DNA from: an uncultured Paracoccaceae bacterium
GTDB taxonomy: Bacteria; Pseudomonadota; Alphaproteobacteria; Rhodobacterales; Rhodobacteraceae
Direction: 5' to 3'
NCBI GenBank assembly: GCA_947497985.1
Contig: CANMIX010000003.1
Coordinates: 248,001-312,000 of the forward strand
Length of the DNA stretch: 64,000 nucleotides
The notes beneath the pieces are model-generated. The model made no database searches. It saw only the letters and a program-made list of their open reading frames with translations, and was not told where the DNA came from. Made by a program: the position numbers and the translations under genes. Shown one piece after another: positions 19,974-49,415 of the stretch; position 1 is the stretch's first letter, and each line of letters opens with the position of its first letter.

Positions 19974-20453
19974 TTAGGCGGCGCGATAGAACATATAGCG
20001 TCCCGGCGGGATGTCGCAGGGTTCCGGCAGCTGTTCAAAACCGGGAAGCTCCTGATCCGAGAGGATTAACCCGCCCGGAAGCATGACCTTGGCCAACAGC
20101 GGGGCCAAAAAAGCGGAGAGTTCCTTGTTGCGTTCGGGATCTCCTGTGCCGAGGTCATAATGCGCGAGCGACACACGCGGCCCATCTTCGGCAAGTTTCG
20201 CAAGCATCGCATCCGCGTCGCCTTGCAGGAAATCCTCGGCTGGTGGAACACAAGCGGGGTGGCACTGCAGGTTGCGGTCGATCACCCAGATCCGACGGTT
20301 GGATGCCAGCTCGCGTAAGTGATCATAGGTGCGCCCATTGCCAAGGCCCAGTTCCAGCACATCTCCTGATGCGTCGCCAAGCTGTTCAGCAGCCCAGTTC
20401 AGCCCAGAGCGTTGGGCGGTTAGTCTTCGAATTACACTGTCTAGACGGCTCAT
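19974..20453 (-). CDS. Class I SAM-dependent methyltransferase
   Basis: Short Rossmann-fold methyltransferase of 159 residues. The SAM-binding glycine loop is VLELGLGNGRTYDHL near residues 32-46 and an acidic residue at the next strand appears in IWVIDRN. A post-motif LILSDQELPGFE is consistent with a class I enzyme. It is the last gene of the minus-strand glycan operon, overlapping the deacetylase gene by four bases. Its substrate is unknown; methylation of a glycan or glycolipid is inferred from context. Confidence 0.75.
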   Translation of the reverse strand: MSRLDSVIRRLTAQRSGLNWAAEQLGDASGDVLELGLGNGRTYDHLRELASNRRIWVIDRNLQCHPACVPPAEDFLQGDADAMLAKLAEDGPRVSLAHYDLGTGDPERNKELSAFLAPLLAKVMLPGGLILSDQELPGFEQLPEPCDIPPGRYMFYRAA

Positions 20454-24067: not shown

Positions 24068-24069
24068 GG

Positions 24070-25308
24070 TTACTGGTCCTGCAACATAGCGGTGATACGA
24101 GATTTGAGCTGGTGAATACCGGGCATCATACCAAATTCATGGCGCAAACGCGCCAGCGCGGCCTCGGCCATTTCGGCGGCATGTTCTGGAGATTGGGCGA
24201 TGCTCACAATGGCCGCCGCCAGATCCTTGGGCTGATCCGAGCTGAGCGTACCGTGGGTGCCGGTGTCGATGAACTCGGGGATTGCAGAGACCGCCGTGGA
24301 CAGGATCGGCAGACGTTGCGACGCGGCCTCCATCAAGACGTTGGGCAGACCGTCGCGGTCGCCGTCCTTGGCCACCCGGCTGGGCAGCACGAACAGATCG
24401 CTGTCACGCATGGCCGCAATCACTTCGGGTTGGTCACAGGCACCATGCCAAGTGATGCGGTCAGCAATACCCGCTTCGACTGCTTGCGCCTGCAGTTTGT
24501 CCTTTAGCGCGCCGCCACCGATATGGGTGAAATGCCAGTCCAGATCGTTCGGCAAAAGGGTCAGAGCCGCGATCAGGTTGTCAAAGCCCTTCTTCTCAAC
24601 CAAACGACCAACGGACATCAGTTTCAGCGGGGCCTCCGCCGTGCGCCAGATACGTTCAGGTGGTTTGGGGAAACGTGTCAGATCAAGACCGTGATAGATC
24701 AGATCAACCGGTGTGCCATCCGACATGTCTTGCAGGTGTTTTGCGCCAAACCCGGTGCAGGTCGCCCCAAAGGCCGCGCCAAAGCTCTTGTCAGACAGTT
24801 TTTCGGAAATTTCCCAATCGGGAGAGGTCCAAATGTCCTTGGCGTGGGCCGAAAAGCTCCACGGCATGCCGCGCATGATGGCGGCGTAACGAGCCACCGA
24901 GGACGGCGTGTGCAGGAAATGCGCATACATCGCCAGGACTTCATCTGACATTTCGGCAGCCAGAACACAGGCTTGACCGAAACGGCGCACGCGGTTGGGT
25001 GTAATATCGCGGCGTAGGTCAGCGCGCCAGATCTCATAAGCTTTGGCGTAGCCCGGCAGTTTGCGTGCAATGTCACGTGCCGCCCAAACCCGTTCCGGCT
25101 CTTCATAAAGGTATTCGGGCAGGTAATGCACCCGCGCCTTCAGCCGTTCGTGCAACGGGTGGCGTTTGATGTCGGTGGGATGGCGCAGGGACCAGATTTC
25201 GAAGTCCACGCCTTCTTCTTCGAGCGCCACAAGCTCTTGTGCGATAAATGTCTCGGACAGGCGCGGCCAGCCTTTGACCAGCACGGCAAGAGGAGGAGTT
25301 TGGGTCAT
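24070..25308 (-). CDS. Glycosyltransferase family 4, colanic-acid type (WcaL-like)
   Basis: The 412-residue product begins with VKGWPRLSETFIAQELVALEE, the common start of WcaL-like enzymes. The donor site is LMSVGRLVEKKGFDNLIAA near residue 230, and the E-x7-E region is around DGLPNVLMEAASQRLP near 325. It overlaps the upstream glycosyltransferase by four bases. The substrate is unknown. Confidence 0.87.
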   Translation of the reverse strand: MTQTPPLAVLVKGWPRLSETFIAQELVALEEEGVDFEIWSLRHPTDIKRHPLHERLKARVHYLPEYLYEEPERVWAARDIARKLPGYAKAYEIWRADLRRDITPNRVRRFGQACVLAAEMSDEVLAMYAHFLHTPSSVARYAAIMRGMPWSFSAHAKDIWTSPDWEISEKLSDKSFGAAFGATCTGFGAKHLQDMSDGTPVDLIYHGLDLTRFPKPPERIWRTAEAPLKLMSVGRLVEKKGFDNLIAALTLLPNDLDWHFTHIGGGALKDKLQAQAVEAGIADRITWHGACDQPEVIAAMRDSDLFVLPSRVAKDGDRDGLPNVLMEAASQRLPILSTAVSAIPEFIDTGTHGTLSSDQPKDLAAAIVSIAQSPEHAAEMAEAALARLRHEFGMMPGIHQLKSRITAMLQDQ

Positions 25309-26516
25309 TCAGCTGCCTTTGGCGCGCGTTGGGCCAACAGGCTTTCAACACGTGTGGTCACATAGTCCAACCCGTCCAGCAAATCAGCATGTGCGCCTGC
25401 GGCTGATGGTGGAGTTTGGGTTTCAAGGGCACGGATTGCCTTGATCATCGAGGCCGGTGTCAGCCCGTCGCGATTCTCATCCAGCATGGAGACCAGGCCC
25501 AGCTCTTCGGCGCGGCTGGCCCGGATCCATTGTTCAAGGCGAGGTTTGGTGCGCGGGACAATCACGGCGGGCCGATCAAAGGACAACAGCTCGCAAAACG
25601 TATTGTAGCCCCCCATCGCCACAACGCCCTGCGCCCCGGCAAAAAGCGTTTCGATCTGGCTTTCAAAACCAACCGCAGTCACCCGGCCATCAAGGCGCGC
25701 GACACGGGTTTCAAAATCTTCGCGTGTTTCACCGGACAAGAAGGGGCCATAGACCAAAACCGCGCGGGGACCCAATGTCGGGTCTTGCTCATAAGCCGAC
25801 AGCACCAGATCCACCATTGTGGCACCATCACCGCCGCCACCGGGGGTGATCAGCACATAAGGTTGCTGCGGCGCGGGGCCAATATCACCAAGGTCACGGC
25901 GCAAATAGCCGGTCCAATGCATGCGTGCACGTGCTTCTGCACTTAAAGGTAATCCTTGCGTCGGCTCATAAACCGAACGGGAGCCATAGACCCAGATTTC
26001 ATCATAATAGGCCTCGGTCGCACGGATCGCGTCTTTGCGCTCCCACTCGCGGGCCAGCACTTCGGGTTCATCCAACACATCGCGCAGTCCCAGAACAATC
26101 TGTGCCGAGCCATCAGTGCTGAGCCGTTCTAGTGTCGGTAGTAATTCACCGCGAAAACCGCTTGGTTCTTTGTCGACGATCAGGATGTCAGGGGCATAGC
26201 TTTCGACGGTAGACAGGATCAGATTGGCACGCAGCTGCGTCGTTTCTTCGATGTCCATGCCCATGGTGCGCGAGGCGTAAGAACCATCTGCGCGTTTGAT
26301 AACGCCGGGAAGGCGCACATGGTCCACCCGTGTCGGAAAGGTGAAGCGACCCGCCACAGGAGAGCCGGTCAGGATCAGCGCGGATGCAGACGGATCAGCG
26401 GAGGTGATCGCCTCGGCCAAAGCACGCGAGCGGCGCAGGTGACCCAAACCAAAAGTGTCGTGGCTATAAAGCATCACACGCGGACCGCGGACGGTATTAT
26501 TCGGCAATGTCGTCAT
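25305..26516 (-). CDS. Glycosyltransferase, GT28/MurG-like (COG4671 type)
   Basis: The start at 26516 is chosen because the conserved protein begins shortly after it with VMLYSHDTFGLGHLRRSRALAEAI; the 49 further open codons upstream belong to a different small gene. The 403-residue product ends with a GT28-like domain: ITPGGGGDGATMVDL near 220 and VAMGGYNTFCELLSFDRPAVIVPR near 315. It overlaps the upstream 34-codon gene by an ATGA and the next glycosyltransferase gene by four bases. Confidence 0.85.
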   Translation of the reverse strand: MTTLPNNTVRGPRVMLYSHDTFGLGHLRRSRALAEAITSADPSASALILTGSPVAGRFTFPTRVDHVRLPGVIKRADGSYASRTMGMDIEETTQLRANLILSTVESYAPDILIVDKEPSGFRGELLPTLERLSTDGSAQIVLGLRDVLDEPEVLAREWERKDAIRATEAYYDEIWVYGSRSVYEPTQGLPLSAEARARMHWTGYLRRDLGDIGPAPQQPYVLITPGGGGDGATMVDLVLSAYEQDPTLGPRAVLVYGPFLSGETREDFETRVARLDGRVTAVGFESQIETLFAGAQGVVAMGGYNTFCELLSFDRPAVIVPRTKPRLEQWIRASRAEELGLVSMLDENRDGLTPASMIKAIRALETQTPPSAAGAHADLLDGLDYVTTRVESLLAQRAPKAAE

Positions 26517-26617
26517 GAAGGGGCCTTGGCGAAAGAATAGCCTGCGAGCAGACGGGAGAACCCACGTCCGGCGGCCAAATCCATGCGCCCATATTCGTGA
26601 CCCCAATCGTTGGCCAT
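26513..26617 (-). CDS. Likely 34-residue small protein at the head of the glycan operon
   Basis: ATG at 26617 has GAGG six bases upstream, and the TGA at 26513-26515 overlaps the next ATG in an ATGA. The product begins MANDWGHEYGRMDLAAGRG and ends FAKAPS; it has no signal peptide. It is too short for similarity judgement and I do not recognise it, but the ribosome-binding site and the same four-base overlap used throughout the operon support translation. Confidence 0.5.
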   Translation of the reverse strand: MANDWGHEYGRMDLAAGRGFSRLLAGYSFAKAPS

Positions 26618-26914
26618 CTTGTGCCTCGGTTCTGGCGAGGTTGCCCATTGCGGCACCTGGCACGTGTTCTTATCTGCTCGAGTTGATGAGCAGGGTTGTG
26701 TACCCGGTGTCGCGGGATTTCGACGTCGCAAAATGACGGCTGCCAAGATATGGTGTGATGCGCCATTTCCTACCAGTCCGCTATAACGCGGGCGTGCCCA
26801 AGTTGCAATCAAGCAAAGATATTTCCAAATCGTAACCAAAATGAGCGATAGCCTTTCAACCTTTGGCTGGATAAAGTTTATCAGAAATTCGAAGATATTG
26901 GTTTAGGTGGCGAA
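26618..26914. other. Divergent intergenic region between glycan operon and mscS-type gene
   Basis: About 300 bases with no convincing gene. It must hold the glycan-operon promoter (minus) and the channel promoter (plus). The half nearest the channel gene, from about 26790, is more AT-rich. I see no Pho-box-like or PhnF-type element and no strong hairpin. Confidence 0.6.
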
Positions 26915-29251: not shown

Positions 29252-30595
29252 TTAACGCCACTGCGCTTTGTGAGTGCCACATGCCGTCGCTGGCAGGGCC
29301 CAGTGCAGTTGAGTTTCATCGACGTGCAAAGGGGAGCGCAGGCGATGGCCCGGTCCCCATGTGGTAGCTTCTGTGGCATCACTGAAGTCATTGTCTTGCC
29401 AATTGCGGACGTCCGGGCCGCTGGCAGCGGGCTCCATGGTGTTTAGCTCATGCGCTGATCTGGCAAGGGAAAGATGTGCTGTGCCAACCGGGTCGCCAGA
29501 GTAAGCCGCGCGCAGCCCAGAAATCGCAGCGGCCGCCATTAGATATCCGGTTGCGTGGTCTAAGGCTTGGAATGGCAGCGGATGCGGGCGTGCGGCTCCG
29601 GCCCACTCCATTCCTGTCTGTGCAATACCGCTGCTCATCTGAACCAGACTGTCAAAACCGCGGCGCTGCGCCCAAGGGCCGGTCCACCCATAGGCGTTGA
29701 GCGTGACTTCAATTCGATCGGGTGCCAGCGCATCACGCCGTTTGAGATCCAGACCAAGGTTATCCAAGGCTCCGGGGCGGTAGCCATGCACCAAGACGTC
29801 CGCCTGTGACAGCAATTGGGACAGGCGCTCCAATCCGTCTGACGTCTTGAGATCAAGCGTTGCCATGCATTTCCCCAGTGAGATATCGGGGATCACGCCG
29901 GGCTCATCCCAATCGGGTGGGTCAATCCGCAGAACGTCTGCACCAAGGCCCGCCAAGGTGCGCGTCGCAATAGGTCCCGCAAGAACACGCGTCAAATCAA
30001 GGACGCGCAGCCCCAACAACGGTCGGGCCGGAGTGGCGTTGGGAAGCGGGCGCAGTCTGACCTGCCGCTTGCCTTGCCAATTGATCAGCGGCTCCCCGGC
30101 AACAGCACGCCCTTGCGGATGGTTGGCCCAATCTGACGCGCTGCGCAAAGCAGCCGCGACGCCTCCGTTGAAATGGATCGCGTCTTCAACTTCGGCAGCG
30201 ATTTGGCTTTGCAACGCCTGCGCAACGTCATCTCGGCGTGCGTTGCAGTCGAGCGTCGCAAGGGCTGCCCGGCGGTGGTGTGGGAGATTGGTGTGGAGGC
30301 GGATCCAGCCGTCGCGTGTCTGGTAAATCCCAGCAAGGTCGTCCCAAAGGTCTGGCATGGACCAACCCTGAGGGCGGAAACTGTATTTTCCCCAAAGTGT
30401 TGCCAGCCGCTGGTCGACGGCAACAGATGGCACCTGCGTCAGCAGACCCGTCGCTGCCATAAAGGCAGACAGCTCGAGACCAACTGCCGCAATGGAGCGG
30501 CACATCAGGTCAGTCACCCCAAATGCACTGGGCGCGATCCCGGTGCCGGTGGTTTCAAAGCCTTCTGGGGCAGGCAGCGCGCGCAGCAAGGTCAT
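29252..30595 (-). CDS. CaiB/BaiF-type CoA-transferase family III protein
   Basis: The 447-residue product matches class III CoA-transferases. The core LLGLRVLDLTRVLAGPIATRTLAGLGADVLRID, read as consecutive motifs near residue 190, contains the family's nucleotide-contact region, and the catalytic Asp is likely in the DLKT/DVLVHGYRPGAL area. It overlaps the upstream permease gene by an ATGA, so it is the last gene of the peptide-type transporter operon. It may activate the imported compound with CoA; the substrate is not evident. Confidence 0.85.
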   Translation of the reverse strand: MTLLRALPAPEGFETTGTGIAPSAFGVTDLMCRSIAAVGLELSAFMAATGLLTQVPSVAVDQRLATLWGKYSFRPQGWSMPDLWDDLAGIYQTRDGWIRLHTNLPHHRRAALATLDCNARRDDVAQALQSQIAAEVEDAIHFNGGVAAALRSASDWANHPQGRAVAGEPLINWQGKRQVRLRPLPNATPARPLLGLRVLDLTRVLAGPIATRTLAGLGADVLRIDPPDWDEPGVIPDISLGKCMATLDLKTSDGLERLSQLLSQADVLVHGYRPGALDNLGLDLKRRDALAPDRIEVTLNAYGWTGPWAQRRGFDSLVQMSSGIAQTGMEWAGAARPHPLPFQALDHATGYLMAAAAISGLRAAYSGDPVGTAHLSLARSAHELNTMEPAASGPDVRNWQDNDFSDATEATTWGPGHRLRSPLHVDETQLHWALPATACGTHKAQWR

Positions 30596-31761
30596 TGCTG
30601 ATATGGGTCCAGGCTGTCGCGCAATCCATCGCCAAGGAAATTGAAGGCGAGAACGACCACGACGATCGGCAGCATTGGAATTGCGGTCCAGGGGTAGATT
30701 TCGATACTGGCGAGGTTTTGTGCATCATTCAGCATCACGCCCCAGCTGACGGCAGGTGCACGCAAACCAAGGCCAAGATAGGACAATGCCGTCTCCCCTA
30801 GGATCATCGCCGGGATCGACAAAGTGGCGGAGGCGATCAGGTGGCTGAGGAAATTCGGCAGCAAGTGCTTGCGGATCACCCGGCCTGAGCTTGCCCCCAT
30901 CATCTCAGCGGCGCGGACGTATTCTTCTTCGCGCAGGGACAGGAATTTCGCGCGTACAGACCGGGCGAGGCCGGGCCAATCGAGCAGTCCCAGAATGATG
31001 GAAATGACAAAGAACACTGCAATGGGGGACCAGTTCGATGGCACAGCCGCTGATAGGGCCAGCCAAAGGGGCAGTTCCGGCAAGGAGCGCAGCACTTCGA
31101 TCACGCGGTTGATGACCCAGTCGATTGTACCACCAAAATACCCCGCGACCGAGCCAAAGAAGATACCCAGCACGAATGACACGGTGATGCCAATCAGACC
31201 TACTGTCAGCGACAGCTGCGCGCCATACAGGATCCGGCTAAACACATCGCGGCCCAAACGGTCTGACCCCCACAGGAAAAAGGGCACAACTTCTTCGTCA
31301 AAAACTTCGGGTGGGCAGAACAGATGGGTGTCGGATGGGATGACGCCCGCAATCTTGTAGGTTTTGCCTTCGCAGAAAAACCGCAGTTTGCGGGGGCTTT
31401 CGAGATCGGGGATGAACTCCCATTGGAACGTCTGCAGGTTTGCCTCGGACGTCATTGGATAGATAAATGGACCGAGGAATTCACCGTCGTGGAAGAAGTG
31501 AATACTTTGCGGCGGCGAGTAGAGATGCTCGGCGTGGCGTTCATTCGGCCCATATGGCGCGACAAAACCGATAACAGGGAGCAGCAAGTAGCAGAAGAGT
31601 AGAAATGCGCCCGAGATTAGCCCTAGCCGATGGGTGCGGAATTTACGCCAAACCAGCAGCCAATTCGGCGCGTCTAGGTCTTTGCGTTCCACTTCCAGCA
31701 GGGCCGGATTTGGGTCAAACGGGGCAACGCTGACAAAGCGGTCGTCTGGTGTGTGGGTCAT
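30592..31761 (-). CDS. ABC transporter permease, DppC/OppC type (YejE-like)
   Basis: Inner-membrane permease of 389 residues. The N-terminus has the YejE-like LLVWRKFRTHRLGLISGAF, then the first membrane helix. A periplasmic stretch of about 110 residues follows before FFLWGSDRLGRDVFSRILYGAQLSL, the conserved start of the permease core. The EAA loop REEEYVRAAEMMGASSGRVI is near residue 285. The extended first loop matches YejE rather than DppC. It overlaps both neighbours by four bases. Confidence 0.9.
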   Translation of the reverse strand: MTHTPDDRFVSVAPFDPNPALLEVERKDLDAPNWLLVWRKFRTHRLGLISGAFLLFCYLLLPVIGFVAPYGPNERHAEHLYSPPQSIHFFHDGEFLGPFIYPMTSEANLQTFQWEFIPDLESPRKLRFFCEGKTYKIAGVIPSDTHLFCPPEVFDEEVVPFFLWGSDRLGRDVFSRILYGAQLSLTVGLIGITVSFVLGIFFGSVAGYFGGTIDWVINRVIEVLRSLPELPLWLALSAAVPSNWSPIAVFFVISIILGLLDWPGLARSVRAKFLSLREEEYVRAAEMMGASSGRVIRKHLLPNFLSHLIASATLSIPAMILGETALSYLGLGLRAPAVSWGVMLNDAQNLASIEIYPWTAIPMLPIVVVVLAFNFLGDGLRDSLDPYQQ

Positions 31762-32786
31762 GATTTGCGCCCTTCATAGCGAATGCGCGGGTCCAGAAGA
31801 ACCAAGAGCACGTCGGATATCATTGTGCCGATCAATGTCAGCAGTGCCACAAACATCAAGACAAAGGCGGACAGGAACATGTCCTGTGATTTCAAAGCCT
31901 GCAGGAGATCAGGGCCGATGGTTTGCAGGCCAAGCACAACCGAGACCAGAACGGAGCCGGACACCATTGATGGCAGAAGGTTACCAATGTCCGCGACAAA
32001 GGGATTGAAGGCCACGCGCAGGGGGTATTTCATCAACATCCGGCGCGGCGGCATGCCTTTGGCGATCGCGGTTTCCACATAAGGTTTACCCAATTCATCC
32101 AACATATTGGCGCGCAGGCGCTGCATCATGGCGGATGCGCCCGAGGTGCCAATGACAAAAGTGGGAACGATCAGGTGCACAAGAATAGACTTCACCTTGT
32201 CCCATGACATTGGCGCGTTCTCGTAAATCGGGTCCATCAACCCGCCGATTGGAAGGTCCAGGTGTTTATGGCCGTAGTAAAACAGGATCAGTGCCAGCAA
32301 AAAGTTCGGCGTGGCCAGACCAAGGTAGCCAACAAAGGCTGACGTGTAGTCCACCCAGCTGCGCGCCCGAGCTGCGGCCAGAACACCCAGGGGCAGCGCG
32401 ACCAGATAGACAAACAATACGGCCGCCAGATTGACCATGACGGTCATCCACAGGCTGTCGCCGACAATCTCGGCCACCGGGGCGTCAAATTCAAAGGACC
32501 AGCCGAAATTGCCCTGGATCAGACCGGAAAACCCATGTGGACCCGGGAAGAAACCGACCCAGATCAGATATTGCTGCCACAACGGACGGTCCAGCGCATA
32601 TTCTTGGCGCAAAAACTCTGCCTTCGCCACTCCCGCAGATTGGCCCGAAGCCTGAAGCTCTGCAATTTGATTGGATAGGTAATCGCCGGGCGGCAAGTTG
32701 ATGATGATGAAAATCAGGATGGAGACGACCCACAAGGTCAACAACATCGTCGCGAAACGATAGATCGCGTAGCGCAGAATTTGCAT
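31758..32786 (-). CDS. ABC transporter permease, DppB/OppB type (YejB-like)
   Basis: Inner-membrane permease of 342 residues with about six hydrophobic segments. It begins ILRYAIYRFATMLLTLWVVSI with the first helix, and its EAA loop is LDELGKPYVETAIAKGMPPRRML near 235. The second helix region YLVALPLGVLAAARARSW is typical of the family. It pairs with the downstream YejE-like permease to form the channel. Its ATG shares one base with the stop of the binding-protein gene. Confidence 0.92.
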   Translation of the reverse strand: MQILRYAIYRFATMLLTLWVVSILIFIIINLPPGDYLSNQIAELQASGQSAGVAKAEFLRQEYALDRPLWQQYLIWVGFFPGPHGFSGLIQGNFGWSFEFDAPVAEIVGDSLWMTVMVNLAAVLFVYLVALPLGVLAAARARSWVDYTSAFVGYLGLATPNFLLALILFYYGHKHLDLPIGGLMDPIYENAPMSWDKVKSILVHLIVPTFVIGTSGASAMMQRLRANMLDELGKPYVETAIAKGMPPRRMLMKYPLRVAFNPFVADIGNLLPSMVSGSVLVSVVLGLQTIGPDLLQALKSQDMFLSAFVLMFVALLTLIGTMISDVLLVLLDPRIRYEGRKS

Positions 32787-34717
32787 TAGCCTTTGCCACC
32801 TTCGAAGTAGAATTCATCCACCCGATGCACGCCAAAATGCGCGCCGGGATCCCAGGCCCAGATGGCCTTGTCCGGGACGTTTCGAAGGTTCCGGTTGATC
32901 ACAACCGGCTGTGGAGCACCAGAGACCAGGCCGATGCCGTAAACTTGTTCCGCGTGAATCATTAGCATGTCGTGCCAGATTTGGCTCCGTGTGGTGTCGT
33001 CGGTGGCGTTGTTCCAATCATGCATCAGATGCATAAGCTGTTGTGCGGCAGGATCATCGGGATATTCGCCAACCTGGCCGCTGGTCTGGTGGTATTGCCC
33101 CCACTTAGGCCAGGCCAGAAAGGTTTGATCCGTTGGAGCCAAATATGACGGTGAGGTATAGGGGCCGGGCAGCCCGTTGTCCCACCCATACCAGACCGAA
33201 GCCATCGTGGTGCCTGAAAACACGCGGTTGCGCAGAATGTCACGGTCGAGCGGACGCAGTATCAGTTTGATGCCAATATCATTCCAGTCATCGGTGATAA
33301 TCTGCAGCGCGTTTTCGACCTCTTGTCGTTCGCCGGCCGTTTCCACGATCAGCTCCATCCGGCGACCGTCTGGCAAGTAGCGAATACCGTATGCGTCTTT
33401 TTTAGAAAGACCCGCCGCATCCAGCATATGGTTGGCCAGTTCCGGGTCATAAGTCGCCCAGGCAGAGCGCATTTTGTCTTTATAAAACGGGCTTTTGTCC
33501 AGAACCGACATCGCGCCTGGATGGCCGAGTTTGAAGTAGAGTGCCTTGTTAATCGCGCGACGGTTGATCGCCAAGGACAAGGCGCGGCGCACCCGGGCAT
33601 CGCGCAGCACGTCGCGCCATACTGGATCGTTGACGTTCAAGTTTGGGTAGATCGCGATTTGCGAGGCAGCGCCGCTTTGCCACAGAACTGAGCGATAATT
33701 GCCGCCTTCATTTTCACCTTTGCGCAGGATCGGAATATCGCGAAACCCAAGGCCTCGGGCCTGTAAATCAGCCTCGCCCGCATTGGACTTCGCGGCGATT
33801 AACCCGCCAGAGACGATCTCCATCTCGACTGTGTCGATATAGGGCAGCTGCACGCCATGGCTGTCGATCCGGTGGTAGAACGGGTTGCGGACAAATTGAT
33901 GGCGGATCTTTTTGCCCGAGGATGCGTTCATCCAGGGCTGCAACGTCGGCAGTTCGTGATTGTCGAACTTGTACATATTGTCGAGCTTGTTGTGCAGTGC
34001 GGCCCAAGATTTCACGCGGGCATAGTCGACCTCTTCTTCCAAAGCCTCAGGAGATGTAAAATCTGCGTGGAATTGTTTTAGATACGCAGACGGGCGATAG
34101 ATGAAGGGGGGGCGTGCCTGTGCGAGGCTTTGCATGAAGTTCGGATTGGGTTTTGACCACTCATAGACAACGGTGGTTTCATCCGGGAATGTGACGGTGG
34201 GGATTTCGCCTTCTACCCGTAAGAAATCCGGCGGACCAGCAGGGCTAAGCAAGGGATTGTTAGCCACGTTTTCCCACCAATAGCGGAAATCCTCTGCGGT
34301 GAATGGGCTGCCGTCAGACCATTTGTGTCCGGGCCGCAGCCGCATGGTGAATTTGCGATTGCCTTCGTTTTCACAGGCCAAAAGCAGATCCGGCTTTAGG
34401 TTGTAGTCCTCGTCATAACCCACGAGCCGCGCGTAGCCATAGACCACCATCTGGCGGATGTCTTTAGATCGGCTGACCATTGTATTGAGGGTGCCGCCTT
34501 GCACGCCAAAACTGCGTCCCTTGGCGGCAAGATCGACAATTAAAGGGGTGTTCGGTAACCGTTCGTCAACGGGTGGAAGAAAGTCCATTTCGACTTCGGA
34601 TTGCCAAAAGCTGCTTTCCTGATATTCGGACCGCTCGAGCGTTTGGGCATGCGCCAGATGCGCGGCGGCCACCAACGCGGTTGCGGTCAGGGAGAGATTT
34701 CGAAACAGCTTAAACAT
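32786..34717 (-). CDS. ABC transporter substrate-binding protein, family 5 (YejA-like)
   Basis: Periplasmic binding protein of 643 residues with a signal peptide ending AHA near residue 24. Family-5 features include KFTMRLRPGHKWSDGSPFTAEDFRYWWENV near residue 130-160 (read in pieces) and VRRALSLAINRRAINKALY near 380. Length and gene order suggest the YejABEF branch, which takes up peptides such as microcins in E. coli. The actual ligand here is unknown and could be a non-peptide given the CoA-transferase in the operon. Confidence 0.9.
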   Translation of the reverse strand: MFKLFRNLSLTATALVAAAHLAHAQTLERSEYQESSFWQSEVEMDFLPPVDERLPNTPLIVDLAAKGRSFGVQGGTLNTMVSRSKDIRQMVVYGYARLVGYDEDYNLKPDLLLACENEGNRKFTMRLRPGHKWSDGSPFTAEDFRYWWENVANNPLLSPAGPPDFLRVEGEIPTVTFPDETTVVYEWSKPNPNFMQSLAQARPPFIYRPSAYLKQFHADFTSPEALEEEVDYARVKSWAALHNKLDNMYKFDNHELPTLQPWMNASSGKKIRHQFVRNPFYHRIDSHGVQLPYIDTVEMEIVSGGLIAAKSNAGEADLQARGLGFRDIPILRKGENEGGNYRSVLWQSGAASQIAIYPNLNVNDPVWRDVLRDARVRRALSLAINRRAINKALYFKLGHPGAMSVLDKSPFYKDKMRSAWATYDPELANHMLDAAGLSKKDAYGIRYLPDGRRMELIVETAGERQEVENALQIITDDWNDIGIKLILRPLDRDILRNRVFSGTTMASVWYGWDNGLPGPYTSPSYLAPTDQTFLAWPKWGQYHQTSGQVGEYPDDPAAQQLMHLMHDWNNATDDTTRSQIWHDMLMIHAEQVYGIGLVSGAPQPVVINRNLRNVPDKAIWAWDPGAHFGVHRVDEFYFEGGKG

Positions 34718-36482
34718 GACATCTCACTTTATGTCCGGGTTCCACGTGAACCAACGGCGGGGCGTCGTTGCCGTCGAACCGAAAGGCGTCGGGCCAACGG
34801 TCGGGCATGCCGGCGCCTTGCGCGACCAGCTTTAGATCGATTGGCCGATCAATCTCGGGCTCCGGTTGAGCGGCAATCAATGCTTTGGTGTAGGGATGTT
34901 GTGGATTGTAAAAGAGCGTGTCAGGAGGGGCCTGCTCAACCACCAATCCACGTCGCATTACGGCAACTTCGTCTGCGATCCGCGCAACCACCGCAAGGTC
35001 GTGGCTGATAAACAGATAGGACAGTTTCTTTTGATTTCGAATCTCTTCAAGCAATTGCAAGATCTGTTCCTGTACCGAGACATCCAAGGCTGAGGTAGGC
35101 TCGTCACAGACCAATAGTTTCGGGTCCAGCATTAGGGCACGTGCGATGGACAGGCGTTGGCGTTGACCACCGGAAAACGCATGAGGGAAGCGTAGCAGCA
35201 TATCGGGACCCAACCCCACCAGACGTAGCAGATCCGCGGCTTTTTCACGCTGCTCTGCTCGACTTCCGATTTTGTGGATTTCCAGCGGTTCGGTCAGTGC
35301 GTCCTGAATGCGCATACGCGGGCTCAGCGAAGAATAGGGGTCTTGAAACACCATCTGGGCTTCGCGTTGAAATTGGAGGCGCGTCTGCTGGTCCATCGCA
35401 TGAACGGGTAGGGCTTCGCTGTCGGGACTGCTGCGAAACAGAACCTCGCCGCCAGGATCTGGAAGTTCTGCGCCAAGGGCAATGCGCGCAGCCGTTGTTT
35501 TGCCGGACCCGCTTTCCCCGACAATGGCGAGTGTTTTACCGCGCGGCAGTGCAAGGTCGACACCGCGACAGGCATGAACTTTCAGGGCGCCGGACCAGCC
35601 GCGCCCAGACCGTAGGGCATATGTCTTAGCAACCGACTTCATTTCCAGGATCATGTCATGGCCGGATGTCGGCAGCACCGGTTCGGGATTGTCGGGAATG
35701 CGAGGGGCGGCGTTGATCAAGGCCTTGGTATAGGCGTGGACAGGAGCGTTTAGGATAGGTGGCGCGTTTCCGGCCTCCATCACTTTGCCTTTGTGCATGA
35801 CCACAACTTTTTCAGCCATGTTTGCAACAACACCCAGGTCGTGGGTCACCAGGATCATCGCCATTCCGGTCTGCTGCTGCAGATCCTTCATCAACCCAAG
35901 CACTTGCGCCTGCGTTGTGACATCCAGAGCGGTTGTGGGTTCGTCCGCGATCATCAGTTTCGGACGTGCCACCATGGCCATGGCGATCATGGCGCGCTGA
36001 CGCATGCCGCCGGACAGCTCAAATGGATAAGAGCGGTAGGTCCGTTCAGGGTCAGGAAAGCCCACCTGTTCAAAGACGTCCAGCACGATTTGTTTTGCTT
36101 TGGCCCCAAACGGGCCTCCGTGCAGATGCAGAACCTCCACCACCTGATTGCCGATCCGGTGCAAAGGCGACAGGGACCGCATTGGTTCTTGGAAAATCAT
36201 CGAGACTTGGTTGCCGCGAATGTCGCGGACAGCGCGTTTGTCGAGCGTGAGCAGATCCACAGGGCCATCATCCATCCGCAGCATGATTTCACCTGAGGTG
36301 ATCTTGGCGGTGCGTGGTAGAATTCCCAAAGCGGCCCGGCAGGTCAGAGTCTTCCCCGAGCCGCTTTCGCCGACCAGCGCCAGTGTTTCCCCTTCTTCGA
36401 CCGTAAAGCTCACGTCCTCAACCACTGGCGCATTCCCGGAAAAGGCAATGCTGAGGTTATTCACCGAAAGAAGGGAGGTCAT
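34710..36482 (-). CDS. ABC transporter ATP-binding protein with two ATPase domains (YejF-like)
   Basis: Fused ATPase of about 590 residues for the peptide-type importer. The first domain has GESGSGKTL near residue 40, LSGGMRQRAMIAMAM near 160 and LMIADEPTTALDVT near 180; the second has GESGSGKTT near 320, FSGGQRQRLSIARAL near 440 and LLVCDEPTSALDVS near 460. Start 36482 fits the domain boundary and has GGAG upstream; an in-frame ATG at 36506 lacks a ribosome-binding site. First gene of the operon and overlaps the binding-protein gene by eight bases. Confidence 0.92.
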   Translation of the reverse strand: MTSLLSVNNLSIAFSGNAPVVEDVSFTVEEGETLALVGESGSGKTLTCRAALGILPRTAKITSGEIMLRMDDGPVDLLTLDKRAVRDIRGNQVSMIFQEPMRSLSPLHRIGNQVVEVLHLHGGPFGAKAKQIVLDVFEQVGFPDPERTYRSYPFELSGGMRQRAMIAMAMVARPKLMIADEPTTALDVTTQAQVLGLMKDLQQQTGMAMILVTHDLGVVANMAEKVVVMHKGKVMEAGNAPPILNAPVHAYTKALINAAPRIPDNPEPVLPTSGHDMILEMKSVAKTYALRSGRGWSGALKVHACRGVDLALPRGKTLAIVGESGSGKTTAARIALGAELPDPGGEVLFRSSPDSEALPVHAMDQQTRLQFQREAQMVFQDPYSSLSPRMRIQDALTEPLEIHKIGSRAEQREKAADLLRLVGLGPDMLLRFPHAFSGGQRQRLSIARALMLDPKLLVCDEPTSALDVSVQEQILQLLEEIRNQKKLSYLFISHDLAVVARIADEVAVMRRGLVVEQAPPDTLFYNPQHPYTKALIAAQPEPEIDRPIDLKLVAQGAGMPDRWPDAFRFDGNDAPPLVHVEPGHKVRCHV

Positions 36483-36928
36483 AGAGCAATCGCTCCGGCG
36501 CAGCATGGTCTAACGCGCAAATAGTCGTCTTTTGGGCAGCGATGCATTTTATTCCCAGTTCTAATCTCGCTTTGCAGCATCGCTTGCGTTTCCTTCACCC
36601 GTCAAACCTTTTCACATCGGACGTCGTCAAGGGGCCAATGGTTGGTCTTTGAATACTACGATACCGATGTTGTGCGGTAACAATAAAGTATCTGTTTGAA
36701 AATTTCACGATTTAACCACCAATCCAGCGCGTTCATTAACGGGCAATTGGCAAAGACCGACCACGGGAACGTGTTTCAGCTTTTGCGTGCCGGAGCGCAG
36801 GCGATAAAACGAAAGTCGCGAAGTTTGAAAATAGGGCGCAAACTTTGCAAAAGATCCGGCAGGATGAACGCAAGGTCGCTTGACGCGCGAGTTCTCTTAG
36901 TTGTGAAGCGGCGTGGAGCAAAAATGCA
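36483..36928. other. Intergenic region between the peptide transporter operon and the DUF3307 gene
   Basis: About 450 bases without a supportable gene. It is AT-richer than its surroundings, especially 36640-36740. It should hold the promoter for the transporter operon (minus). A TTG-initiated plus-strand frame at 36696-36974 gives a basic product without ribosome-binding site and overlaps the DUF3307 gene, so it is not called. Confidence 0.6.
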
Positions 36929-37378
36929 TCAAGTCAAAACAAAAACACACCAAGCCCAGCCCATGCCCAGATAAGTGGCTTGATGCAGCGCTTGGTCAGT
37001 GCCCATTGCCCACCAAAACAGCGACTGAGTCGGTTTCAGATCCTTCATTTCATTGTATCGTGCTTTGCCAAAGTCGATGTGGAAATGGGCGACCCATTCC
37101 AAGATACAAATAATGAAAGCGAATTTGAGAGGCGCTGACATGATCGCCAAAACACATGCGGTCCCGACCAAATGAACACTGGCGTGCTGTGCGCGACCCA
37201 TATGAAAATAAAGGCTCCGGCCCGAAAGCATGCGAGGGGTCTGTAAATAGAAATCCGCAAACATATGTTTGACCTGCAACAGCAGAAGCAAGGCAAGCAA
37301 CGATGCGACGTGTTCTGACAATGGTTTGTCCTTCTTGAGACCCGGAATTCGTTTGAACCTTACGGCTTTTAGTCGCAT
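36929..37378 (-). CDS. DUF3307 family membrane protein
   Basis: The product of about 149 residues has hydrophobic helices around LLALLLLLQVKHMFADFYLQ, HASVHLVGTACVLAIM and AFIICILEWVAHFHIDFGKAR, plus a C-terminal GTDQALHQATYLGMGWAW. The polar residues within helices (K-H-x-F-A-D, E-W-x-A-H-x-H-x-D, D-Q-x-x-H) are the DUF3307 pattern. Function of the family is unknown. The start is uncertain: 37378 fits the length of relatives but lacks a strong ribosome-binding site. It is divergent from the degenerate ABC gene. Confidence 0.8.
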   Translation of the reverse strand: MRLKAVRFKRIPGLKKDKPLSEHVASLLALLLLLQVKHMFADFYLQTPRMLSGRSLYFHMGRAQHASVHLVGTACVLAIMSAPLKFAFIICILEWVAHFHIDFGKARYNEMKDLKPTQSLFWWAMGTDQALHQATYLGMGWAWCVFVLT

Positions 37379-37467
37379 AGGCAAACACTGCTCGTTGCAA
37401 GAATGCACAGAACTTACAAAAGGAACAGTAACAAGTCGGTCTTGGCGTAACGTCATTCCGCAGCTAG

Positions 37468-40400
37468 ATGTACGTGGCCGATGCCACAATCGGGAGCAGG
37501 GTCATAGAACGTTCTCTTTTTAAGTTTATCTGGAAGTACTCCAAGCGCGACCAGCTCGTCCTGCTTGTGGTGACGTCCTGTCTATTTCCGCTGTTGTATC
37601 TAACGCTTGAACTGCCCAAGCGAATTATTAACGACGCCATCGGTTCGCAGAGTTCCACCATTTCCGTGATGGGTTATGAGCTGGAGCAGTTGCATTTCCT
37701 TTGGTTTTTGTGCGGTGCCTTTCTGATTTCTGTTCTGTGTCATGGTTTGTTGAAAATGCGGATCAACACCATGAAGGGGATCCTCGCCGAGCGCATGTTG
37801 CGCCGCTACCGCTTTCAGTTGATCGAGCGGGTTTTACGGTTCCCGCAGCCCTATTTTGAACGAGTTAGCCAAGGCGAATTGGTGTCGATGGTCACTTCGG
37901 AAAGCGAACCGATGGGGGGATTGATGGGGGATGCGATCAGCCAACCGGTGCTGCAGGCCGGGCAGATGCTGACGATCCTGTTCTTCTTGTTCTCGCAGAA
38001 CTTTTGGTTCGGTCTGGCTGCGGTTGCGCTGATCCCGTTGCAAGGCTGGTTGATCCCTGTGTTGCAGCGTCGGATCAATCTTTTGAATAAGAAACGTATT
38101 CATCAGGTACGTGCGCTGGCCTCTGAGATCGGAGAGAGCGCTGTTGGAGCCTCCACCTTGCGGATCAACGGCGGTTGGAGATACCGGCTTGCAGTGATCA
38201 CTGAACGTCTGGGACGTTTGTACGATATCCGGTTTGATATCTACAAAAAGAAATTTTTCATGAAGTTTATCAATAACTTCATCACTCAGCTCACACCGTT
38301 TTTCTTCTATGCGGTTGGTGGATTTTTGGTGCTGCAGGGAAAGGTGTCGCTCGGTGCGTTGGTTGCTGCATTGGCGGCTTACAAGGATCTTGCTTCACCT
38401 TGGAAAGAACTTTTGGCCTATTACAACCAGACCCAAGACATGGGGCTGCGTTGGGACGTGATTCAGGAACGGTTTGCGCCACGAGGCATGGTTGACGCAC
38501 ATCTGATGCAAGGCGAACCGGAGACGATCGAGCGCCTGAATGGTGACGTGGTTTTGCGCGCTGTAAATGTGCGTGATACGGACGGCAATTTGGTTCTGGA
38601 AGACCTGAATGCCGAGCTTCCACAGGGCAACGTTATTGGCATCGCGGCGCCTTCTGAAGAAGACCGCCGGGCTCTCGCGCAGCTTTTGACACGGGAACTT
38701 CTTCCGTCGGCGGGGCAGGTGACACTGGCCGGGCATGACTTGCGCCAATTGCATCAGGCAGTGTTGGCGGCCCGGGTTGGCTACGCCACATCGCGTCCTA
38801 TTCTGTTTCAGGGCTCTTTTGGAGATAACGTCCTGATGCCGATGCGCCCGCGTCCACAAGGGGCCGCCCGTGACGAACAACGCAATAGGGATGCCATTAA
38901 AGCAGGGAATAGCTCCGACCCAATAGATGCGACGTGGCTCGAACCTGGGCTTGCGCGTCTTAGCAGTGAAAATGAATTGCGCGAGTGGTGGCTCAGACTG
39001 GTCGAAGGGATCGGGTCGCAAACCAATTTGTTCCGACGCGGATTGGAGCACCGGTTTGAAAGCGAGATGCATCCGGAACTGGCGCAGCGGTTGGTTTCAC
39101 TGCGCCCACAGATACAGACAGCCGTTCGAGAGGCCGGTCTTCAGGACTGTACGCATTTCTTCTCGCCGCAAGACTATAACGCGGCGATGCCGGTTGCCGA
39201 AAACTTACTTTATGCCACACTTCGTCAGCCGTTGACCGAAGAACAGCTCATTCAGCAGCGCGAGTTCCTGGAAAGCCTGCGGGATCTCGGACTGGTCAAC
39301 GACCTGGTCGCCTTGACCCAGGATGTTGTGGAAATGCTACGCCAGACTTTTGGCATTGATGGTGTTGACCACCCGTTGTTTCGCAAACTTGGGATCGGGG
39401 CCAGCACCTATGAAACGGCCTTGGCGCTGACGGAAAAATCCCGCAAAAGCGGGGCCGACGCGCTGGATTTGGTTGAGCTGGCTCAGCTTTTGATCGTCCC
39501 ATTCCGGATCTCTGCCGAAAAAATCGGTCCCGCCTTCACAGATGAGATGAAGGTGCAGATCCTTGAATTCCGTCGGGCCCATGGCAATGACATGCGTGGT
39601 GCCTTGCAGGAGACATTTGTCCCGATCGCCAAAACGAAGTTTGCCCCTGGGCTGACAGTTTTGGAGAATGCCCTGTTTGGTAAGATCGCTGACGGAGCCG
39701 GGCCAAAAGGCGAAGAGTTGCGTAAACTGGTGTCGCAGGTTTTGATCGACAATGGATTGCGTGATCTGGTGGTGGAGTTGATTTTCGACTTACCGATTTC
39801 GGTAGGTGGACAAGGGTTGCCAGCCAGTCTCGCGGAACCTCTGGCATTTTCACGCGCGACGGTGAAACGCCCGGATCTGCTGATCTTGGATGACGCAATG
39901 GCCAGCTATGATCTGGAGACACGGATCGCGGTGCATAAGAACCTGCGAAAGCTATTGCCGGATACGACGCTGGTTTATCTGAGTTCAGAATTCGCCAAAC
40001 CCGAAGTTTTTGATGTGTATTATGAGCTGCAGCAAGGACGCCTTGTTACAGATGATGTGCGTATTGAGGCCGTCGAAGATGGGGCAGCCAGCGCCGACCT
40101 TGCACGAAAATTGCGCGCTTTGGAGCAAACAGAGCTATTTTCGGGTCTGAATCGCCGCCAGCTGCGTCTGTTGGCCTTTGGTGCGCGGTGGTATGAAGCC
40201 AAATCAGGACATGTCGTCTTTAACAAAGACGATGATGCGTCAGATGGCGCCTACATGATTCTCGAAGGTGAGGCCGATTTTTACCTGCCTCAACCTGACC
40301 AGGATGACAGATATATCGTGACCTTTGGTCCAGGGCGCTTGGTCGGAGAGTTGGGCTTAATCCGACGCGAACCACGCGCGCTGACCATGGTGGCCAAGAC

Positions 40401-40512
40401 GGATTTGACCTGCCTTCGCATTGGCGAAGAGGAGTTCCTCGCCGTTGTCGAGAACGATGCCCCGACGGCGTTCAAACTGTTGCAGGTTGTCGCTGGCTAT
40501 GTCTCCAACTAG
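37468..40512 (+). CDS. ABC-exporter-like protein with degenerate ATPase domain and C-terminal cyclic-nucleotide-binding domain
   Basis: A 1014-residue fusion. Residues about 30-310 form an ABC type-1 exporter membrane domain. The ATPase domain starts near 350 but the P-loop position reads GIAAPSEEDRR near 391 and lacks Lys. A Q-loop-like LFQGSFGDNVLM near 448 is followed by about 320 extra residues. The signature is SVGGQGLPASLAE near 777, Walker B is LLILDDAMASYD near 804, and the H-loop His is Ser in VYLSSEF. Residues about 890-1010 are a cNMP-binding domain with the phosphate-cassette-like GRLVGELGLIRREPRALT. It is unlikely to hydrolyse ATP; a sensor or regulated scaffold is inferred. Start codon is uncertain. 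Confidence 0.85.
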   Translation: MYVADATIGSRVIERSLFKFIWKYSKRDQLVLLVVTSCLFPLLYLTLELPKRIINDAIGSQSSTISVMGYELEQLHFLWFLCGAFLISVLCHGLLKMRINTMKGILAERMLRRYRFQLIERVLRFPQPYFERVSQGELVSMVTSESEPMGGLMGDAISQPVLQAGQMLTILFFLFSQNFWFGLAAVALIPLQGWLIPVLQRRINLLNKKRIHQVRALASEIGESAVGASTLRINGGWRYRLAVITERLGRLYDIRFDIYKKKFFMKFINNFITQLTPFFFYAVGGFLVLQGKVSLGALVAALAAYKDLASPWKELLAYYNQTQDMGLRWDVIQERFAPRGMVDAHLMQGEPETIERLNGDVVLRAVNVRDTDGNLVLEDLNAELPQGNVIGIAAPSEEDRRALAQLLTRELLPSAGQVTLAGHDLRQLHQAVLAARVGYATSRPILFQGSFGDNVLMPMRPRPQGAARDEQRNRDAIKAGNSSDPIDATWLEPGLARLSSENELREWWLRLVEGIGSQTNLFRRGLEHRFESEMHPELAQRLVSLRPQIQTAVREAGLQDCTHFFSPQDYNAAMPVAENLLYATLRQPLTEEQLIQQREFLESLRDLGLVNDLVALTQDVVEMLRQTFGIDGVDHPLFRKLGIGASTYETALALTEKSRKSGADALDLVELAQLLIVPFRISAEKIGPAFTDEMKVQILEFRRAHGNDMRGALQETFVPIAKTKFAPGLTVLENALFGKIADGAGPKGEELRKLVSQVLIDNGLRDLVVELIFDLPISVGGQGLPASLAEPLAFSRATVKRPDLLILDDAMASYDLETRIAVHKNLRKLLPDTTLVYLSSEFAKPEVFDVYYELQQGRLVTDDVRIEAVEDGAASADLARKLRALEQTELFSGLNRRQLRLLAFGARWYEAKSGHVVFNKDDDASDGAYMILEGEADFYLPQPDQDDRYIVTFGPGRLVGELGLIRREPRALTMVAKTDLTCLRIGEEEFLAVVENDAPTAFKLLQVVAGYVSN

Positions 40513-40868
40513 GAGATTTTAGCTGCGGTATTTGGGAGCCCTTTGTCGCCGTCACAGAATAAAGTGTACAGTAATTCAAGCACTTGTGCTGCATTCTGAT
40601 CTTTTAGGCTGTAATAGACGGTTTTGCCCGCTCGCCGGGTGTGAACCATGCCCTCATCGCGCAGGCGTGCAAGCATCTGGCTGACGGCGGCCTGGCGCAA
40701 ACCCAGCAAGCTCTCAAGCTCACCAACGGAGCGCTCACCATCAACGAGATGACATAAAATCATCAAGCGGCCTTCGTGAGCCAATGCTTTCAGGAAAGCA
40801 GCTGCGGAGGCTGCGCTGGTTGACATGTCTTCAGGTGCAGGTTTCGGTGTCTGGGTTGAGATATTCAT
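40509..40868 (-). CDS. ArsR-family regulator resembling SqrR/BigR persulfide sensors
   Basis: A 119-residue winged helix-turn-helix protein. Recognition region is LLGLRQAAVSQMLARLRDEGMV. Cysteines at 39 (MILCHL) and 105 (TLFCDG) are spaced by 66 residues, the same as Cys41 and Cys107 of Rhodobacter capsulatus SqrR, which form a tetrasulfide link in response to sulfide. The start at 40868 is chosen for length; an ATG at 40910 is in frame. A palindrome lies 55 bases upstream. No sulfide-oxidation gene is adjacent, so the target set is unknown. Confidence 0.82.
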   Translation of the reverse strand: MNISTQTPKPAPEDMSTSAASAAAFLKALAHEGRLMILCHLVDGERSVGELESLLGLRQAAVSQMLARLRDEGMVHTRRAGKTVYYSLKDQNAAQVLELLYTLFCDGDKGLPNTAAKIS

Positions 40869-41196
40869 AATAGTAAAGGTCTGTTGCTCGTTATGGAGGT
40901 TTGGCGGCATATTGCATAAAAAGTCTAGTATAGGCTAGACCCTTGAGGTCGATATTCTAACCGGACAAAAGGTTGCTGCATTCTCCTGCATCATGTTGAT
41001 TTTGCAAAGTTAAAATGTCTGTGCATATTCCGCCTACCAGTAGTGCCGGACCATTGGAAGGACATCTCCAAGATAAAAGCATGGTTCGAATGTCCTCCCT
41101 AAATTTCACAAAAGTGTATCAATCAGCATTTTTGTTGGATGTGGCTTCCGTTAGTTTTTGGTCTTTGACAGTGCATATGCGCAGTGCGCGCTCGTC
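40869..41196. other. Intergenic region upstream of the ArsR-type regulator
   Basis: About 330 bases without a supportable gene. It contains the palindrome at 40923-40940 and otherwise AT-rich sequence. A plus-strand frame at 41015-41200 lacks a ribosome-binding site and family features. Confidence 0.55.
40923..40940. promoter_or_regulatory. Palindromic operator candidate for the ArsR-type regulator
   Basis: GTCTAG and CTAGAC are exact inverted six-base half-sites separated by six bases (TATAGG). It lies 55 bases upstream of the regulator start, suitable for autoregulation. Confidence 0.5.
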
Positions 41197-48185: not shown

Positions 48186-49415
48186 TTACCCTTTGTACTT
48201 GCTTAATACCATCGACCCGTTGGTGCCACCAAAGCCAAAGCTGTTGGTCATCACGGAATCAAGGCCTGCGTTTTCAACCAGATCGGTCGCAACTTCGCCC
48301 GGCAGGATACCTTCGGCGAGCGTGTCGACGTTGATCGAAGGTGTAATGAAATCATGTTCCAGCATCAGCAGGCAGAAGATCGCCTCGAGCGCGCCGGCGG
48401 CACCCTGTGCGTGGCCGGTCATCGATTTGGTCGAGGAGATCGGCGGCACTTTGCCTTCGCCAAAGACGCGGCGGGCTGCTTCGACTTCGCCCACATCACC
48501 AACAGGGGTCGATGTGCCGTGTGCGTTAATATAGTCGACCTTGCGGCCTTCGGGCAGGGTCTGCAGGGCCAGACGCATCGCGCGCTCTCCGCCTTCACCA
48601 GAAGGTGCGACCATGTCGTGGCCGTCGGATGTGGCTGCAAAACCAGTGACTTCGGCATAGATTTTCGCACCACGGGCCTGCGCGTGTTCCAGATCTTCCA
48701 GAACCACAATGCCACCACCGCCAGAGATCACAAAACCATCGCGGTCCTGATCAAAGGCGCGGGAGGCTTTGGTTGGGTCGTCGTTTTTCTTCGACGACAT
48801 TGCGCCCATCGCATCAAAGAGACAGGAGAGCGTCCAGTCCAGCTCTTCCCCGCCGCCTGCAAACATAACGTCCTGTTTGCCCATCATGATCTGTTCTGCC
48901 GCGTTGCCGATGCAGTGCAGGGAGGTCGAGCAAGCCGAGGTGATGGAATAGTTGATGCCCTTGATTTTGAACGCGGTTGCGAGGTTTGCCGAGATCGTGG
49001 AGGACATGCATTTGGGAACCGCAAACGGGCCGATCCGTTTGGTCGCGCCGGTTTTCTGCACGGTTTGGTGCGCGGTCAGCATCGCAGATGTCGACGGGCC
49101 GCCCGAGCCTGCAACCAGACCGGTGCGCTCATTCACGACCTGATCGTCGCTGAGGCCGGCATCCGCAATCGCCTGGTTCATCGCGATATGCGCATAGGCT
49201 GCGCCGGGACCCATGAACCGCAGCGTGCGTTTGTCGACCAGCTCTTTCACGTCCAGCTTGAGCGTGCCGGCGATCTGGCTGCGGAAGCCATGTTCGGCCA
49301 TCTCGGGGCTGGCTTCGATGCCGGATTTCCCGGCTTTCAAAGAGGCCAAAACCTCTTCGGCATTGTTCCCGATCGAGGAAACGATCCCTAGACCGGTGAC
49401 GACGACACGACGCAT
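48186..49415 (-). CDS. fabB: 3-oxoacyl-[acyl-carrier-protein] synthase I
   Basis: Condensing enzyme of 409 residues needed for elongation of unsaturated acyl chains made by FabA. The active-site Cys is in SITSACSTSLHC near residue 162; the two His lie in NAHGTSTPVGDVGE near 300 and TKSMTGHAQGAAGA near 335. The start RRVVVTGLGIVSSIGNN is typical of FabB/FabF, and pairing with FabA supports FabB. It has its own promoter because a terminator and an opposite gene separate it from fabA. Confidence 0.94.
   Translation of the reverse strand: MRRVVVTGLGIVSSIGNNAEEVLASLKAGKSGIEASPEMAEHGFRSQIAGTLKLDVKELVDKRTLRFMGPGAAYAHIAMNQAIADAGLSDDQVVNERTGLVAGSGGPSTSAMLTAHQTVQKTGATKRIGPFAVPKCMSSTISANLATAFKIKGINYSITSACSTSLHCIGNAAEQIMMGKQDVMFAGGGEELDWTLSCLFDAMGAMSSKKNDDPTKASRAFDQDRDGFVISGGGGIVVLEDLEHAQARGAKIYAEVTGFAATSDGHDMVAPSGEGGERAMRLALQTLPEGRKVDYINAHGTSTPVGDVGEVEAARRVFGEGKVPPISSTKSMTGHAQGAAGALEAIFCLLMLEHDFITPSINVDTLAEGILPGEVATDLVENAGLDSVMTNSFGFGGTNGSMVLSKYKG

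Follow-up and report, generated by a model that had tools for sequence, protein, structure and literature searches.

Can the fold of an ATP-binding cassette (ABC) exporter be put to use without ATP chemistry? ABC exporters are defined by an ATP-driven conformational change, and the question is raised by a gene in a 64,000-nt stretch of DNA from an uncultured Paracoccaceae bacterium (GenBank CANMIX010000003.1, positions 248,001 to 312,000; hereafter the window). On the evidence of its open reading frame (ORF), Pfam and AlphaFold2, this gene specifies an MsbA-like ABC exporter half with a degenerate ATPase domain, an insert and a C-terminal cyclic nucleoside monophosphate (cNMP)-binding domain. 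The original prediction, which placed it at 37468–40512, was exact in these coordinates: the ORF, on the forward strand, starts with ATG and runs uninterrupted over 1014 amino acids.

Pfam recognises ABC_membrane (PF00664) at residues 51–302 (64.4 bits versus a cut-off of 28) and cNMP_binding (PF00027) at residues 912–997 (57.4 versus 27.5), the latter bearing out the C-terminal domain that had been claimed, whereas ABC_tran (PF00005) at residues 377–468 stays below its cut-off (22.8 versus 25), so that no ATPase domain is called. We delimit, all on the forward strand, a membrane domain (residues 13–340; 37504–38487), the degenerate ATPase domain up to the insert (residues 341–455; 38488–38832), an insert (about residues 456–765; 38833–39762) and the cNMP-binding domain (about residues 894–1014; 40147–40509). 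An AlphaFold2 model of the whole chain, built with 79 sequences, has a mean pLDDT (predicted local distance difference test) of 87.7 and a pTM (predicted template modelling score) of 0.77. When Foldseek was run with the full-length model, each of the 50 matches listed (E 2e-17 to 1e-14) was an ABC exporter, a likeness that bears on the exporter part only. The closest named relatives are found in Epibacterium ulvae (95% identity) and Tritonibacter litoralis (86%), which suggests that the window comes from this group of marine roseobacters; public databases annotate relatives as “ABC transporter transmembrane domain-containing protein” or “cyclic nucleotide-binding domain-containing protein”.

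The ATPase motifs of exporters comprise a Walker A Lys, a Q-loop Gln, the LSGGQ signature, a catalytic Glu and an H-loop His, and all five are missing from the window protein. In the alignment, the former Walker A GNVIGIAAPSEEDRRA (residues 387–402; 38626–38673) has Arg400 in the place of Lys, with APSEEDRRA as the loop (region GIAAPSEEDRRA), and in the former Q-loop, GYATSRPILF (residues 438–447; 38779–38808), Gln is replaced by Ser442. LPASL (residues 784–788; 39817–39831) stands where the signature should be; the Walker B remnant LILDDA (residues 805–810; 39880–39897) has Asp809 instead of the catalytic Glu, and the former H-loop YLSSEF (residues 837–842; 39976–39993) has Ser840 instead of His. 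Still present are Asp808 of Walker B and, further along, the Asp in ASYD. The losses in Walker A, Walker B and the H-loop had been correctly recognised beforehand, while that of the Q-loop Gln was overlooked, and the signature was thought to survive as GGQ. This GGQ (residues 780–782) is rejected as the signature: when SVGGQGLPASLAEPLAFSRA of the window protein is aligned with VAGSRLSGAQRQK and IAGSRLSAAQRQK of relatives, it falls in the loop preceding the signature, of which LPASL is the lost remnant. The ATPase is, by its motifs, deader than first described, given that the Q-loop Gln and the signature are also gone, and it is very probably without catalytic activity.

Is this an accident of one protein? 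Motifs were counted in 147 distinct ORFs with a minimum length of 700 amino acids, 91 from the clade in which the cNMP domain is fused and 56 from wider relatives; split or partial copies (L076, L080, L158, L159, L169) were omitted and near-identical sequences kept, so that the counts are not independent. A quick tree, which came with long-branch warnings, was used solely for the fused clade (18 of its 68 rows, with a support of 100). None of the 91 fused-clade sequences retains the Walker A Lys, the Q-loop Gln, the signature Gln or the H-loop His; the catalytic Glu is kept in four, no member keeps more than two of eight key residues, and Arg occupies the Walker A Lys position in 84. Among the 56 wider relatives, Lys is found in 23, the Q-loop Gln in nine, the signature Gln in 42, the Glu in 31 and the His in 17. 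The most intact of them, the distant L163, has six of the eight key residues (Walker A GDGNSGKT, LSGAQ, LDEAT and the H-loop His), and ten others have five. The predicted ATP sites of the family, therefore, range from near-intact to dismantled. A survey of motif loss in homologues had been proposed as a check, and homologues with intact catalytic residues as a refutation: there is no intact site in the clade of the window protein, and partly intact ones, with up to six residues (L163), occur in distant relatives only.

The gene is under strong purifying selection and, to judge by substitution rates, no relic. The ratio of non-synonymous to synonymous substitution rates (dN/dS) against a 95% identical relative (L008) comes to 0.033 for the gene as a whole, with values of 0.012–0.056 for its parts. 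The pattern of conservation across the family is inverted relative to the usual ABC exporter, with the membrane domain as the best conserved large part: in family pairs with 30–50% membrane-domain identity, the mean is 0.434 for the membrane domain versus 0.263 for the ATPase core, and the core is the more alike in 58 of 4334 such pairs (which are not independent), as compared to 15 out of 15 pairs amongst six canonical exporters of the same genome.

The cNMP domain, for its part, has kept its pocket. The hallmark of a phosphate-binding cassette is a Gly-Glu and an Arg, and the aligned cassette of the window protein, VGELGLIRREPRAL (residues 959–972; 40342–40383), retains both Glu and Arg. The Arg is conserved in 94 of 95 fused rows and in all 18 separate cNMP copies; the Glu is conserved in 79 of the 95 (with Asp in 15) and in 17 of the 18 (Asp in one). 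The lone row lacking the Arg is L161, a wider relative, the tail of which may not be a cNMP domain. In roseobacter-type loci, the domain is fused in 59 of 60 cases, the remaining one being cut by a contig end. At 50 loci of the wider family, a cNMP gene lies just downstream in 40 (on the same strand, ending 150–1600 bases past the gene), is fused in four, is lacking in five and is cut off by a contig end in one. The fused domain, thus, has a recognisable separate-gene counterpart across the wider alphaproteobacterial family. The window genome has eight matches to class III cyclases (PF00211), and a plasmid of Mesorhizobium has two cyclase genes at a distance of less than 7 kb from the family gene. 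We predict that the C-terminal domain probably binds a cyclic nucleotide. A dead ATPase coupled to a sensor, as envisaged in the original prediction, is well supported because all 91 fused sequences are without Lys, Gln and His, the pocket of the sensor is conserved and the wider family has a partner gene for it; the receptor or scaffold role proposed along with it, instead of a pump, is less certain.

On the Sinorhizobium meliloti megaplasmid (L276:9001-12273), Walker A without Lys is also seen in a 903-amino-acid relative (HB773_24135), which is followed by a Crp/Fnr-type cNMP gene and adjoined by a glycosyltransferase.

The insert separates the Q position from the signature by 343 residues. 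A simple pattern located the Q-loop in two of the six canonical exporters examined in this genome, and in these the distance is 57; in one of the two, the pattern also matched a second Gln, at 64. The insert, thus, amounts to about 286 extra residues, not the 320 or so estimated beforehand. Three segments of the form (D/E)NxL, located at residues 452, 577 and 732, had been taken to hint at internal duplication. Profile–profile comparison of residues 500–620 with 655–775 gives 98.9% probability (E 1e-17, 88 columns), while 13 control pairs gave 0.1–2.7%. We conclude that the second and third segments belong to a true tandem duplication, to judge by their profiles, of a module with an ENxLFG segment: copy 1 (residues 532–620; 39061–39327, forward) contains AENLLYATL (577–585), and copy 2 (residues 688–775; 39529–39792, forward), which continues into the ATPase domain beyond the insert, contains LENALFGKI (732–740). 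The first segment is the exporter's own Q-loop region and resembles the others weakly (62–64%, or 71–86% using longer segments); a three-fold repeat was, therefore, rejected.

Modelled alone, the insert reaches a pLDDT of 92.4, and it has no significant match in Pfam or the PDB. Pfam found no match at E 0.001 in the inserts of 16 members (best E 0.015), nor did Foldseek for the insert model against the PDB (best E 0.33). Two insert profiles compared with PDB sequences gave candidates that we rejected: profile A2 matched ABC ATPases (among the best 60 of 185 matches up to E 1), almost all over its positions 276–365, which are the generic ATPase end, and profile A4 gave one chance match (E 0.28). 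In the family profile searches, the best five to six candidates per genome were scored, and weak matches were mostly generic ATPase ends.

What the protein might serve is suggested by a glycosyltransferase operon. Seven gene families recur near members of the family, viz. glycosyltransferases of the GT28 and GT4 types (two of each), one histidine phosphatase, one protein resembling polysaccharide deacetylases and one small protein, and 33 of the 50 wider loci have at least three of them nearby. The window has six of the seven, with their order preserved, on the reverse strand at 20450–26663, 10.8 kb from the gene, each matching its counterpart: GT28a, the first operon gene (25305–26663; 49% identity to the GT28a of locus L200, which matches PF04101, and assigned also by co-occurrence); GT4a (24070–25308; PF00534); GT4b (22976–24067; PF00534); a histidine-phosphatase-like protein (22392–22979; 44% to the L200 protein with PF00300); GT28b (21250–22395; PF04101) and a polysaccharide-deacetylase-like protein (20450–21253; 39% identical to its counterpart at L200 and 47% to that at L067). 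The window GT28a has no Pfam match of its own at E 1e-5; the name of the deacetylase-like protein is taken from the annotation of a related locus, and for the relative at L200 Pfam gave no match at E 0.001. No match to the seventh family, the small protein, was found in the window operon.

Gene and operon are inherited together. In a sample of 292 genomes from one order, the insert region, and with it the gene, is present in 82. GT28a, at E ≤ 1e-100, occurs in all 82 of these and in one of the 210 genomes without the gene. It lies within 50 kb of the gene in 36 of the 82 but not in the remaining 46, which include fragmented assemblies. Co-inheritance without linkage argues that gene and operon serve one pathway, which we regard as very likely, and it points to the handling of a glycan or glycolipid of the envelope, whether or not transport is involved. 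An apparent loss of the glycosyltransferase link in roseobacters (the link being seen in two of 60 loci) came from flanks of about 8 kb or less; it was rejected because the operon is 10.8 kb off in the window and within 50 kb in the 36 genomes.

In some genomes, the membrane domain of the family stands on its own, with no ATPase domain attached. ORFs of 402–493 amino acids that encode it in this form were found in at least 19 places in at least 17 of the 292 genomes. Among the first five free-standing copies (L233–L237), three (L233–L235) are in copper loci; L236 and L237, the two most distant, had no copper gene by the same search. All 19 listed close relatives of L233 (L279–L297) lie among multicopper oxidases, mostly with plastocyanin- or azurin-like proteins (cupredoxins), as compared to two of 110 full-length loci with any copper gene sought. 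No ABC ATPase ORF was found in 18 of these 19 free-standing loci, and none of the seven operon families was found when they were sought there as a contrast set. The free-standing copies support the notion that the membrane domain may have ATP-independent uses.

The reading that we prefer, held tentatively and at somewhat less than an even chance, is that of a cyclic-nucleotide-responsive pseudo-ATPase gate or assembly partner for the envelope glycan of the operon. The ATPase domain of an MsbA-like half-exporter would have been turned into a non-catalytic scaffold, and two copies, presumably as a homodimer, would form a membrane path or platform for the glycan or glycolipid. Binding of cAMP or cGMP to the C-terminal domain would send a signal through the pseudo-ATPase and the insert, switching the membrane domains between states, and passage (downhill or powered elsewhere) or assembly would be gated by that signal instead of being driven by ATP. 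A more ambitious version extends this to the family as a whole, which would have come to rely on a signal in place of ATP: with the ATP site taken apart and remade, the cNMP partner fused and the pseudo-ATPases locked by the insert, the membrane domain would act as a ligand-gated glycan conduit, and an ATPase-free version of it would serve in the copper loci. We consider this extension rather unlikely.

Several observations weigh against the gate or assembly partner. The Walker B Asp is retained in 53 of the 91 fused-clade sequences, and pseudo-ATPases can still bind ATP. The near-intact relatives (L163 and the ten with five residues) may hydrolyse ATP, in which case the founding mechanism may have been that of an ordinary pump. 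The five wider loci without a cNMP gene (three of Marinobacterium, one of an Oceanospirillaceae member, and L186) break the pairing with a sensor, and in 17 of the 50 wider loci the operon link is missing from the sequence as fetched. With the threshold for GT28a relaxed to E 1e-40, 92 genomes match, including 10 of the 210 that lack the gene, and the stricter threshold was picked after the gap in E values had been seen. In nine of these ten, the matches are weaker (E 6e-73 to 4e-55). The tenth, G222, has GT28a without the gene, and the membrane-domain query matches there at E 8e-31. The co-occurrence concerns one order, related genomes and one operon gene, and kinship weakens its statistics; a p-value for it carries no meaning. 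Finally, cNMP domains can bind other ligands, such as guanosine tetraphosphate (ppGpp) in the case of HetC (PMC10986499).

Two alternatives are the strongest rivals. The first, which is possible though we think it doubtful, is a pure receptor or scaffold: nothing would be transported, and a bound cyclic nucleotide would govern how the glycosyltransferases assemble or act at the membrane. The lost ATP engine, the large and confidently modelled insert, and the co-inheritance of GT28a even where unlinked would all suit such a role, but no other large part of the protein is as well conserved as the membrane domain, as expected for a retained path, although a receptor would fit the data too. The second, which we judge improbable, is a heterodimer, of which the window protein is the non-catalytic half and an active half-transporter is encoded elsewhere, the cyclic nucleotide being merely regulatory. 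The window genome has a single copy of the gene and six other, more ordinary exporters, all with the Walker A Lys; these could supply hydrolysis, which likewise counts against the gate or assembly partner. However, there is no exporter gene among the scanned neighbours in the window, and none was seen to recur among the named clusters in the neighbour layout of the family. Moreover, 53 of the 82 gene-bearing genomes hold two members of the family and one holds three, and the second copies aligned (L030–L036) are also devoid of the Lys, the Q-loop Gln and the His. Mixed-dimer exporters usually retain the Walker A Lys in their inactive half, and the window protein has lost it. That the gene is decaying and headed for loss is extremely improbable: an internal TAG in the second copy of genome G004, one TAG flagged in the match at L025 and the splitting of L076 over two ORFs would be in line with decay, but the dN/dS of 0.033 refutes it for the window copy, and the cNMP pocket and the presence of the insert region in 82 of 292 genomes speak against it as well.

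How does the putative gate compare with known systems? ABC exporters with one degenerate site exist. MsbA-type exporters (TIGR02203, PF00664) have the same half-transporter layout of one membrane and one ATPase domain, and TIGR02203 is the best NCBIfam match of the window protein, at 128.4 bits, far short of the equivalog cut-off of 602; unlike MsbA, the window protein has no Lys, Gln, signature, Glu or His at the motif positions, and it carries the insert of about 286 residues and the C-terminal cNMP domain. The bacteriocin exporters of the NHLP family (TIGR03796, TIGR03797) are its second and tenth best NCBIfam matches, with scores (106.5 and 75.2) that stay below the cut-offs (853.3 and 709.4). 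A separate cNMP protein (L200:10335-10790) matches TIGR03896 (bacteriocin-type transport-associated), also below the cut-off (45.2 versus 161).

ABC exporters with cNMP domains are already known. In HetC of Nostoc, the two are fused as in the window protein, and the cNMP domain of HetC is reported to be needed for function (PMC10986499). HetC differs in that its cNMP domain is N-terminal, in having a peptidase domain and in an essential catalytic residue of the ATPase; its cNMP part bound ppGpp, whereas cAMP gave no significant protection (PMC10986499). A C39 peptidase domain is not among the four Pfam families listed up to E 1 for the window protein. What appears to be new is the combination of a dismantled ATP site, a duplicated insert without a match and a fused former partner, which was not found in the literature searched (titles and abstract openings of openly accessible papers), where there was nothing on this family. 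An exporter fold without ATP chemistry, joined to a second-messenger domain, would allow testing which steps of the transport cycle need ATP. The gene also offers a handle on an uncharacterised envelope-glycan operon, the first gene of which is present in 83 of the 292 sampled genomes, and a relative from the wider family is available in S. meliloti, a tractable symbiont. We take MsbA2 of S. meliloti to be a different pSymB gene from that relative. It is a polysaccharide ABC exporter whose removal is reported to be deleterious only while the upstream glycosyltransferase genes remain (PMC12239276).

Several other genes lie near the gene. The divergent gene at 36929–37489 (reverse strand) encodes a DUF3307 protein (PF11750); its start codon is uncertain, the longest ORF overlapping the gene by 22 bases. 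It is a clustered neighbour in 30 of 51 sources, the window counted in, and was rejected as an obligate partner, since it occurs in 148 of the 292 genomes, far above the 82 with the gene. An oligopeptide-type ABC importer (30592–36506, reverse strand) lies, along with other genes, between the operon and the gene, and its binding protein and permeases are 44–54% identical to those near the S. meliloti locus L276 and the alphaproteobacterial loci L178 and L185; recycling of a product by this importer is possible.

Downstream, an ArsR-type regulator gene (40509–40910, reverse strand) converges on the gene, the last four bases being common to both; the same cluster is found in nine of the 51 sources, in seven of them within 70 bases. 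In L047–L064 (mostly Shimia), a ketoacyl-synthase gene, so named after the family member in the window at 48186–49415, lies upstream in 15 loci, and an upstream small protein looks, by eye, like an acyl carrier protein.

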